A DNA stretch of 39,808 nucleotides, taken from NCBI GenBank assembly GCA_029238785.1, contig JAQWFN010000074.1, positions 1 to 39,808 of the forward strand, in the 5' to 3' direction. Positions 36,732 to 39,808 of this stretch are shown piece by piece. The first letter of the stretch is position 1; each line of letters opens with the position of its first letter. Under the pieces are notes generated by a model. That model saw nothing but the letters and a program-made list of their open reading frames with translations. It made no database searches and had not been told where the DNA came from. Both the position numbers and the translations under genes were made by a program. This stretch comes from Flavobacteriales bacterium (GTDB lineage Bacteria; Bacteroidota; Bacteroidia; Flavobacteriales_D; Sanyastnellaceae).

Positions 36732-37136
36732 TTAAGCGAAGAAAAATTCGCCTTCGATTTTAGCGTTATCGTCGCTATCAGAACCGTGAACTGCGTTTGC
36801 TGCAATCGACTCTGCGAATTCTGCACGGATAGTTCCTGGAGCAGCTTCTTTCGGGTTTGTTGCACCTATTAGTGTTCTGTAGTCTTCAACTGCATTGTCT
36901 TTTTCCAAAACTGCAGCTACAATAGGACCAGAGGTCATGTACTCTACCAATTCTCCGTAGAAAGGACGTTCTGCATGAACTGCATAAAACTCTTTTGCTT
37001 GAGCATCAGAGAGGGTTGTCCATTTCATTTCCACGATGCTAAATCCAGCTTGGATAATGCGATCGATAATTTTCCCTGTGTTACCAGCTGCAGTTGCATC
37101 TGGTTTAATCATTGTGAAGGTTCTTGTACCAGCCAT
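36732..37136 (-). CDS. ndk: Nucleoside-diphosphate kinase
   Basis: This 134-residue enzyme exchanges gamma-phosphates between nucleoside di- and triphosphates. It opens with [14 protein letters not shown], has the [21 protein letters not shown] region and the active-site His117 in NAVHGSDS. The start at 37136 matches the family; the frame runs open upstream to 37334 but that stretch is non-conserved. An exact -7 box lies just upstream and a strong terminator follows. Confidence 0.97.
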
Positions 37137-37159
37137 TTTCTTTATATTCAAAATCGGTG

Positions 37160-37167
37160 CAAAAGTA
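37160..37167 (-). promoter_or_regulatory. Candidate -7 element of ndk
   Basis: TACTTTTG on the minus strand matches TAnnTTTG exactly, 23 bp before the ndk ATG. No clear TTTG sits at the expected distance; the strong hairpin at 37210-37244 lies just beyond. Confidence 0.5.
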
Positions 37168-37209
37168 CAAAGATTTATTCGAAAGCTCTTGTGCTTATTT
37201 GATAATAAA

Positions 37210-37244
37210 CAAGGGCCGAAACCAATCTCTTGTTTCAGCCCTTG
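37210..37244 (-). other. Strong hairpin upstream of ndk, minus-strand sense
   Basis: CAAGGGCTGAAAC pairs with GTTTCGGCCCTTG on the minus strand (13 bp, one U-G wobble, 9-nt loop). On the plus strand the wobble becomes a C/A mismatch, so the minus strand is favoured. On that strand it is followed only by a weak T-rich tail (TTGTTTATTATC). It may be a terminator for a small minus-strand RNA from the 37245-37705 gap, since no gene there points into it, or an ndk leader element. Confidence 0.5.
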
Positions 37245-37292
37245 CATCATGCAAAAAAAAAAATCGACAATCACACTTTCATTAATAAATTG

Positions 37293-37383
37293 AGCGACAA
37301 GAATTTCTTTGAGGCGAACATCACTCTCTCCCAATGATGTTCTTTTAATATAGCCACATTACCTCGCTGATTTTCTTGTCGCT
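37293..37383. repeat. Nested inverted repeat, possible structured RNA
   Basis: AGCGACAAGAA (37293-37303) and its exact complement TTCTTGTCGCT (37373-37383) enclose a second stem, GAACATCA (37316-37323) with TGATGTTC (37335-37342), loop 11 nt. The arms are perfect and nest correctly. Whether it is transcribed is not known. Confidence 0.55.
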
Positions 37384-37507
37384 TATTTTTAGGTTCTTGT
37401 TTTTGATCTTCTGTCTATTCAGACGGAGATCTTTTTCGGAGGTCACATTTGAGATTGATTTTTTTTGTTTTGTTTGGTGATGCTGGGGTATTGTTTGTTT
37501 TTGGGCA

Positions 37508-37620
37508 TTATCCATTTAAGTCGCCAAGTGCCTGTTCAGCTAGAAAATTGCGCTTATCCATTTAAGTCGCCAAGTGTCTCTTCATCCAGAAAAATGCGCT
37601 TATCCATTTAGGTCGCCAAA
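37508..37620 (+). repeat. 46-bp-period direct repeat upstream of rocD (two full units and one partial)
   Basis: Units begin at 37508, 37554 and 37600, exactly 46 bp apart. The first 23 bp of the first two units are identical (TTATCCATTTAAGTCGCC then AAGTG); their second halves differ at five positions, giving 41/46 identity. The third copy keeps TTATCCATTTA-G-GTCGCCAA, one change in 20 bp, then diverges. They end ~30 bp before the -33 box of rocD. Confidence 0.85.
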
Positions 37621-37650
37621 CTCATTCGAAAAAGAGGTGTAAAGATGAAC

Positions 37651-37681
37651 TTGCTGCGCTTGTTGCTTTTCAATAGCTTTG
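37651..37681 (+). promoter_or_regulatory. rocD promoter
   Basis: TTG (37651-37653), a 20-bp spacer and TAGCTTTG (37674-37681, exact TAnnTTTG) place transcription start at about 37687, 19 bp before the ATG. The 46-bp repeats lie immediately upstream, in the position of activator or repressor sites. Confidence 0.62.
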
Positions 37682-37705
37682 TAGAACCACATAAAAGAGA
37701 CGAAG

Positions 37706-38989
37706 ATGGCAGATATCATGGAACAGCAATTAAACTCCAAAACAGCGATGGAGTTGGAGAACAAATACGGAGCGCACAACTACCATCCACTTCCTGTGGT
37801 ATTGGAAAAGGGAGAAGGTGTTTTCGTGTGGGATCTTGAGGGGAAGAAGTACTTCGATTTCCTTTCTGCCTATTCTGCAGTTAACCAAGGACACTGCCAT
37901 CCAAAAATTGTTGGAGCCATGACGGCTCAAGCCAAAAAACTGACACTAACATCGCGTGCATTCTACAATTCTGTGCTTGGTGAATATGAGAAATATGTAA
38001 CCAACTACTTTGGGTTTCAAAAAGTGCTTCCAATGAATACGGGTGCAGAAGCGGTTGAAACAGCAATCAAGCTCTGCAGAAAATGGGCCTACGAGAAAAA
38101 AGGCATTCAGGAAGACCAGGCTGTAATTGTGGTTTGCGATCAGAATTTCCACGGACGAACGACAACTATTGTTTCTTTCAGTAATGATCAAGACGCTAGG
38201 AAAAACTTCGGACCGTACACTCCAGGATTTGTTAGCATTCCCTACAACGACCTTCAAGCTTTAAAAAAAGCACTTGAAAATAAAAATGTAGCAGGATTCC
38301 TAGTTGAGCCTATACAAGGAGAAGCCGGAGTAAACACGCCATCAGATGAATATATTGCTGGAGCAGCGAAGCTTTGTAGCGAGCGTAATGTTCTTTTGAT
38401 TGCTGATGAAGTTCAAACGGGAATTGCGCGTACAGGAAGTCTTTTAGCCGTTTGTGGAAACTGTACTTGTGAAGCACACTGCGAGCGTCAGGCAACATAT
38501 ACAAAACCAGACATCTTGATTTTAGGGAAAGCCCTTTCAGGAGGAGCTTACCCCGTATCTGCTGTTCTTGCCGATGATGATATCATGATGGTGATCAAAC
38601 CAGGTCAGCACGGGGCTACTTGTGGAGGCAACCCGGTTGCAGGCGAGGTGGCTATGGCTGCTTTAGAAGTTGTGAAAGACGAACATCTTGCTCAAAACGC
38701 CCGAAGATTGGGAGCAATTTTCCGTGCTGAAATGCAAAAGCTTGTTGAGACCTCTCCACTAGTAAAAGGAGTTCGGGGGAAGGGACTTTTGAATGCCGTT
38801 CTTATTAACGACACTCCTGAAAGTGCTACAGCTTGGAACCTTTGTGTTGCTATGAAAGACAATGGACTTCTAGCGAAACCTACACACGGAAACATTATTC
38901 GATTCGCGCCGCCTTTGGTGATGACTGAAGAACAATTGATGGAATGTGTTTCTATCATTAAAAACACTTTCCTATCTTATAAAGGATAA
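37706..38989 (+). CDS. rocD: Ornithine--oxo-acid aminotransferase with cysteine-rich insertion
   Basis: This 427-residue PLP enzyme transfers the delta-amino group of ornithine to 2-oxoglutarate, giving glutamate semialdehyde in arginine catabolism and proline synthesis. Family marks are [69 protein letters not shown] and the PLP-binding Lys275 in LGKALSGG. Between the LLAV strand and the lysine strand there is a short insert with Cys250, Cys253, Cys255 and Cys259 ([10 protein letters not shown]) not present in the common form of the enzyme, where the two strands are joined by a short acidic loop. The start could also be the ATG at 37718. The gene has its own promoter and terminator. Confidence 0.95.
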
Positions 38990-39059: not shown

Positions 39060-39700
39060 TTACATAAACCCTACGCTTTTCATCCATTCATCATTATAGA
39101 CCTTGCCAACATATCTACTGCCGTGGTCGTGAAACAAAACAACCACTACATCATCTTCAGTCAGTTGATCTTTAAGTTGTCTTAATCCTTGAAAAGCAGA
39201 TCCACAAGAATAACCTAGAAACAAACCTTCTTTCAAGGCCAATTCTCTAGCTACAAGTGCTCCGTCTTTATCGGTTACTTTTTCAAAGTGATCGATAATA
39301 TCAAAGTCTACATTCTTTGGTAAAATATCCTCGCCTATGCCTTCGGTGATATAGCTATGAATTTCATTTTCGTCGAACACACCGGTTTCGTGGTATTTTT
39401 TGAAAACCGACCCGTAGGTATCAATTCCCCAAATTTTAATATTCGGGTTCTTTTCTTTGAGGTACTTCCCTACTCCAGAAATTGTTCCTCCGGTTCCAAC
39501 CCCAACAACGAAGTGCGTAATCTTACCTTCCGTTTGTTCCCAAATTTCTGGTCCGGTTGACTCATAATGCGCCTCTCTGTTGCTTAGGTTGTCGTATTGA
39601 TTTACCCAATAAGAATTAGGCACCTCCTTGCTCAGGCGTTCGGCAACTGAGTAATAAGAATCTGGGTGATCTGGAGCAACGTTTGTTGGACACACATGCA
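39060..39700 (-). CDS. Cystathionine beta-synthase/cysteine synthase family protein, C-terminal part
   Basis: About 213 residues of a fold-type II PLP enzyme are present, from HVCPTNVAPDHPDSYYSV to the end NDEWMKSVGFM. The phosphate-binding loop GVGTGGTISGVGKYL, the WGIDTYGSVFKKY segment and FLGYSCGSAFQG mark the cystathionine beta-synthase type of Bacteroidota, which joins serine and homocysteine or makes cysteine. The protein stops after the catalytic domain without a CBS-domain pair. The N-terminal ~130 residues, including the PLP lysine, are missing. The frame continues to 39806, but the extra 36 residues come from an inverted duplication of this gene's own antisense strand and are not real. 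True coding therefore ends near 39700. Confidence 0.88.
39355..39463 (+). repeat. Left arm of a 109-bp perfect inverted repeat
   Basis: These 109 bases, inside the cystathionine beta-synthase-type gene, are the exact reverse complement of 39700-39808. The match breaks sharply at 39463/39700. This arm is the native copy, because the family protein sequence reads through it without interruption. Confidence 0.97.
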
Positions 39701-39808
39701 CCTCAAAGAAAAGAACCCGAATATTAAAATTTGGGGAATTGATACCTACGGGTCGGTTTTCAAAAAATACCACGAAACCGGTGTGTTCGACGAAAATGAA
39801 ATTCATAG
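39700..39808 (-). repeat. Right arm of the 109-bp inverted repeat, at the window edge
   Basis: This arm replaces the expected upstream coding sequence of the cystathionine beta-synthase-type gene and runs to the last base. It is probably a fold-back artefact or strand-switch join; the arms are separated by 236 bp of unique sequence. Confidence 0.95.

Follow-up and report, generated by a model that had tools for sequence, protein, structure and literature searches.

A direct-repeat array upstream of rocD in a Flavobacteriales bacterium, one of a genome-wide set of arrays probably bound by a catalytically dead IS1595 transposase derivative

The stretch of DNA studied here (the window, 39,808 nucleotides from a Flavobacteriales bacterium) carries, between the divergent genes ndk (nucleoside-diphosphate kinase, 36732–37142, reverse strand) and rocD (ornithine–oxo-acid transaminase, TIGR01885, 37706–38989, forward strand), an intergenic forward-strand array of direct repeats at 37508–37619, the System-A core array. 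The first-pass annotation had described a 46-bp repeat in front of rocD, and TRF confirms it with a call at these positions (period 46, 2.4 copies, 90% match, score 182), the runner-up array within the window scoring only 52. Each of the 2.4 units of 46 bp consists of a 20-nt core, TTATCCATTTA(A/G)GTCGCCAA, and a 26-bp spacer, and the three core copies stand in register: TTATCCATTTAAGTCGCCAA at 37508–37527 and again at 37554–37573, and TTATCCATTTAGGTCGCCAA at 37600–37619, with units 1 and 2 identical at 41 of 46 positions. Allowing up to three mismatches, the core occurs three times in the window, always in this array, where shuffled sequences lead one to expect 0.00 occurrences. The promoter-like pair described earlier between array and rocD (TTG at 37651 and TAGCTTTG at 37674, together 37651–37681, forward strand) likewise held up and is conserved in the sister species, in which CTTTTCAATAGCTTTGTA is identical; as this site lies downstream of the array, the array is not transcribed from it. 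Upstream of the array, a promoter scan gave no TAnnTTTG box in the window's own genome. Two side observations concern the same neighborhood. An inverted repeat at 37287–37389, between ndk and rocD, retains its fold in the sister species, with four pairs changed on both sides and some segments identical (for instance ATCACTCTCTCCCAATG), making it a possible candidate for a structured RNA; Rfam, run on 36900–37800, returned a single match far below threshold (14.5 bits versus a gathering score of 290). At the contig end, positions 39706–39808 (the last ~100 bases) are an exact inverted copy of the stretch starting at 39355, probably an assembly fold-back, which gives the cysK open reading frame a false N-terminus. 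An exact 32-bp overlap at 39674–39705, within cysK, joins the window to contig C94 (locus L024, in reverse complement), on which the locus is continued.

The core is not confined to rocD. Searching G000, the genome of the window (3.11 Mb, 132 contigs), for the core gave 36 matches, some of them weak, and a search with the core pattern gave 41 versus 1 with the reversed control pattern. About 37 copies of the System-A core make up nine arrays, and a further single copy lies on contig C34, ten sites in all; a view of the repeat as rocD-specific is corrected by this number. All sites are intergenic, and the cores are co-oriented within each array at spacings of 44–47, 57 and 77–81 bp, the 46 bp found at rocD being one spacing among several. 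Information content is 1.68 bits per column in the core versus about 0.3 in the flanks; the unit is thus a core with a degenerate spacer, and the spacers of the arrays fall into a few similar families that are common to several arrays. A CRISPR array was rejected because the spacers are related to one another in this way and the rocD units are identical at 41 of 46 positions. Helical phasing of the core spacings was likewise set aside: clustering is seen, and the Rayleigh values carry no evidential weight because the spacing classes are related by descent. Going by the gene tables, roughly half of the sites stand before the start of a gene (rocD, ZnR-A, and those on contigs C47, C90 and C73, the last by way of its counterpart in the sister species), and roughly half lie between convergent gene ends (C41, C95, C15, C34 and C54), so that a role as promoter operator cannot be general. 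Probably, then, the rocD repeats belong to a genome-wide element system and are not a private switch of rocD.

A candidate protein partner is encoded close by. The array on C94 lies directly upstream of a gene for a 289-aa protein with an IS1595 zinc ribbon, which we call ZnR-A (L024, 1762–2631, forward strand); by way of the C94 overlap the gene corresponds to ~41685–42554 in window numbering, beyond the window end and some 4 kb from the rocD array. The array belonging to ZnR-A (L024, 1463–1621) maps to ~42695–42853, likewise outside the window, at a distance of about 5.1 kb. The sister species (G001), the only other species of the genus compared and like G000 a fragmented draft, has the same rocD/ZnR-A arrangement. 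Each genome holds five ZnR paralogues (A–E) at pairwise orthologous loci, nine of them intact, the exception being ZnR-D of G001, of which only a C-terminal piece is left, joined to another open reading frame. This piece lies in frame with a reading frame that by eye looks acyltransferase-like (L074, 994–1698), possibly a gene fusion that followed the loss of the DNA-binding half. The full-length members are each unique and share 36–51% identity with one another; no ZnR was found in multiple near-identical copies in a genome, each sitting at an orthologous locus in both species. Between the species, syntenic ZnR pairs are 43–51% identical versus mostly 76–97% for their neighbors (64% for a DUF1343 protein), and their pN of 0.34–0.40 against a pS of 0.84–0.88 indicates purifying selection. 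Conservation is highest in the N-terminal part (58–72%), and the middle is hypervariable (27–32%).

Profile comparison ties these proteins to the DDE-type transposases of the IS1595 family. The PF12760 zinc ribbon was matched in nine of nine members (best E 1e-5, in the member shown below the curated cutoff), the helix-turn-helix part is matched by NF033547, and hhalign of the ZnR profile with intact IS1595 transposases gave E = 9e-60; the Pfam and NCBIfam matches are those of the IS1595 zinc ribbon and helix-turn-helix, and not those of a tyrosine (IS200-like) transposase. The catalytic aspartates of the DDE/DDN core (VDE...TDxW) are missing, neither being present in any of the nine members. 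Only the last ~26 residues of the PF12762 DDE domain are matched in the ZnR member shown; in an intact relative the match extends over 140 residues, and all four comparison proteins match the domain well. No intact IS1595 copy was found in G000 or G001. Judged on these matches, the ZnR proteins are probably IS1595 transposase derivatives that have kept the zinc ribbon and the helix-turn-helix and lost catalysis, while the hypervariable middle domain may conceal an unrecognized active site.

Five types of core can be told apart, A (TATCCATTTANGTCGCC), B (TATTGACTTANGTCGCC), C (TATCGGCTTANGTMGCC), D (TATATANTTANGTCTCA) and E (CGGCTTANGTCGCANGA), and they pair with the five proteins. At all nine intact ZnR loci only the gene's own core type is found within 500 bp, with direct copies upstream, and at six of the nine (B, B, C, D, E, E) an inverted core lies over the stop codon, as it would in a compact insertion sequence. 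No recognizable copy of such an inverted end was found at ZnR-A in either species, and the end at ZnR-C is degenerate in G000. All five core types also have copies away from their gene, and mosaic arrays combine B, D and E cores. System-E cores further occur in long arrays of 35-bp period at contig ends (the starts of C102 and C12 in G000), which may be where they break the assembly. As ZnR-D of G001 has no DNA-binding half, D cores are predicted to be absent from that species, and this held for what is a single loss event: G000 has 13 matches versus 4 for the control, and G001 has none above control (2 weak matches versus 3).

The distribution of the A cores beyond G000 is narrow. Among 60 relatives many core copies exist only in G001; G050, of another family of the same order, has four one-mismatch copies, and at up to one mismatch the search of 35 further genomes belonging to the family turned up none. 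Exact core matches in the genome collection number 11, with an array only in L060, a G001 contig, the rest being isolated and mostly from unrelated organisms. A plasmid search returned nothing but distant matches to the rocD coding sequence, and viral contigs gave one isolated core match and no array. Six of the ten sites are common to G000 and G001 in orthologous place and orientation (rocD, ZnR-A, C73, C41, C54 and the single copy on C34). Four arrays are found only in G000 and one or two only in G001, the orthologous regions being without them and the intergenic DNA there no longer alignable between the species; not every site, therefore, has been kept. The rocD array of G001 consists of two cores at a distance of 80 bp, and the last core lies about 90 nt from the −7 box in G001 versus about 55 in G000. 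Core spelling also differs, with CTTATCC in most G000 copies versus GCTATCC in nearly all G001 copies. Synonymous sites are saturated between the two species (pS 0.73–0.88, fourfold identity 0.19–0.45; rocD pS 0.73 and clpB pS 0.76, with fourfold identity 0.40–0.45), so that neutral DNA is expected to be randomized, and near-perfect cores at shared sites imply maintenance or homogenization.

These comparisons bear on whether the arrays are neutral leftovers, that is, dead MITE or minisatellite arrays growing by slippage without a current binding partner or function. Turnover of unit length and copy number, the presence of arrays between convergent genes and the gain or loss of some sites would all be compatible with this reading, and the first-pass annotation had taken many copies across the genome as the sign of a neutral repeat. 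The copies are indeed many, but they lack the appearance of neutral DNA: at orthologous sites the cores have remained near-perfect although synonymous divergence is saturated, their spelling follows the species, each core type has one protein, with the intact proteins under purifying selection, and no cores are found where the protein was lost. We consider neutral leftovers unlikely.

The origin of the core is suggested by G050, in which, on our reading of the sequence, MITE-like elements terminate in GGGTTATCCATTTAAGTCGCGAAA, have paired ends and show direct duplications of 8 bp; this points to a transposon end as the source of the core. Elsewhere, genera g7 and g10 carry IS1595 copies with a VDE/ADE motif and different ends, beginning ACGG. 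In genus g6 of the same family (L113, L114, L122) we observed an IS1595-related set without a visible VDE motif and with paired ends TGATTATCCGYGAAA, which in two species (L113 and L114) occupies an orthologous place by an aconitase-like gene; dispersed arrays are absent from g6, and the set may have met the same fate independently. A further rival reading makes the arrays a still-mobile selfish family, non-autonomous and moved in trans either by a ZnR protein whose active site is unrecognized or by some intact relative of IS1595 outside the assemblies. The sites found in one species only, with array-free orthologous regions in the other, the spacer families common to several arrays and the mosaic B/D/E arrays could be read in this way. 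Against it, no intact IS1595 copy was found in either genome, the catalytic aspartates are not conserved, and neither inverted end pairs nor target duplications were seen at the dispersed A arrays. Continued mobility thus appears improbable.

The reading that we favor, and hold to be probably correct on the comparative evidence above, is that the rocD array is one site of a genome-wide set of transposon-end arrays bound by ZnR-A, a domesticated and catalytically dead IS1595 derivative. The cores would represent the sequence that an IS1595-type element carries as its terminal repeat and that its transposase recognizes, and ZnR-A a single-copy, vertically inherited derivative of that transposase. 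Most likely ZnR-A binds the cores at its own promoter, resulting in autoregulation, and the dispersed arrays as well; it would be expected to bind TTATCCATTTANGTCGCC and not TTATTGACTTANGTCGCC. With protein and site co-evolving, arrays would stay where they are as their unit length, copy number and core spelling change. Several points weigh against this reading: ZnR-A has no recognizable inverted end, the arrays as direct repeats show no ordinary cut-and-paste product, some sites occur in one species only, and the variable middle domain may hide an active site. The array upstream of rocD is probably a set of protein-binding sites, and this part of the earlier operator-array claim is supported, given the conserved promoter and the G001 array; the arginine/ornithine-responsive regulator is not supported, in view of ten sites with unrelated genes and the match to the sites of an IS1595-derived protein. 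A dedicated operator array for such a rocD regulator, for which the position upstream of a conserved promoter and the array at the same place in G001 can be adduced, is very improbable, as the sites are not restricted to arginine/ornithine genes, nine others lying in intergenic DNA beside unrelated genes and half of all sites standing between convergent gene ends without a promoter, as core-to-−7 distance, unit length and copy number differ between the species, and as the 35 other family genomes searched are without cores. While this analysis gave no evidence for control of rocD by the array, a bound array just upstream of the rocD promoter may modulate rocD as a by-product.

To our knowledge, there are few cases in bacteria of a transposase gene retained alongside scattered copies of its end sequence, REP/RAYT being the best known. 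As in the REP/REPIN-RAYT systems (PMC3116915), short intergenic repeats are dispersed and each class goes with its own single-copy transposase-derived gene, a trait seen at all nine intact ZnR loci, with several parallel sets per genome and apparently long co-evolution. RAYTs, however, belong to the tyrosine transposases and are related to IS200, and REPs, which are palindromic, mostly occur in inverted pairs (PMC3116915), whereas the ZnR proteins come from DDE-type IS1595 and are without the catalytic residues, and the sites are direct-repeat arrays. Neisserial mosaic elements (dRS3 + RS; PMC3898611) are similar in that 20-bp cores alternate with spacer families in intergenic mosaics; dRS3 differs in its terminal inverted repeats (ATTCCC-N8-GGGAAT), in its copy number of almost 700 and in being the target of a filamentous phage, and no adjoining dead transposase is described there. 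BrickBuilt of Porphyromonas gingivalis (PMC4596501), likewise from Bacteroidota, is strictly intergenic, with a tandem ~23-nt repeat in a MITE-like element; its repeats differ in having no spacers and in being framed by a leader and a tail with small inverted ends, and its abstract states no cognate protein. IS1595 (ISXO2-like) elements and their MITEs resemble the ZnR loci in zinc ribbon and helix-turn-helix homology, in an element size of ~1 kb and in a terminal repeat that at six of the nine loci lies over the stop codon, and the G050 MITE-like elements share the core end sequence, with 8-bp duplications; the ZnR loci differ in lacking the catalytic aspartates, in their fixed orthologous positions and in carrying additional direct copies of the end, both before the gene and farther away. 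TldR (see PMC13418256), a nuclease-dead, RNA-guided transcription factor derived from TnpB, is unrelated to ZnR in sequence and may be likened to it, by analogy only, as a dead protein of transposon origin reused for sequence-specific DNA binding. A search of open-licence papers found no description of a dead IS1595 protein combined with direct-repeat arrays.

It is conceivable, and we advance it tentatively, that five DDE-dead, genus-specific IS1595 transposases have been domesticated as parallel, rapidly co-evolving DNA-binding proteins, each with its own dispersed direct-repeat network of transposon-end origin, forming a regulatory or chromosome-organizing system that would be the DDE-class counterpart of REP/RAYT. 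For the reading of bacterial genomes there is a caution in this: a repeat upstream of one gene is not to be taken for the operator of that gene. With five apparently dead DDE-type paralogues that each have a private site type, with sites, arrays and protein changing together between two species, and with the sites absent in the one species that has lost a protein, what keeps repeats in bacterial genomes becomes a directly testable question.
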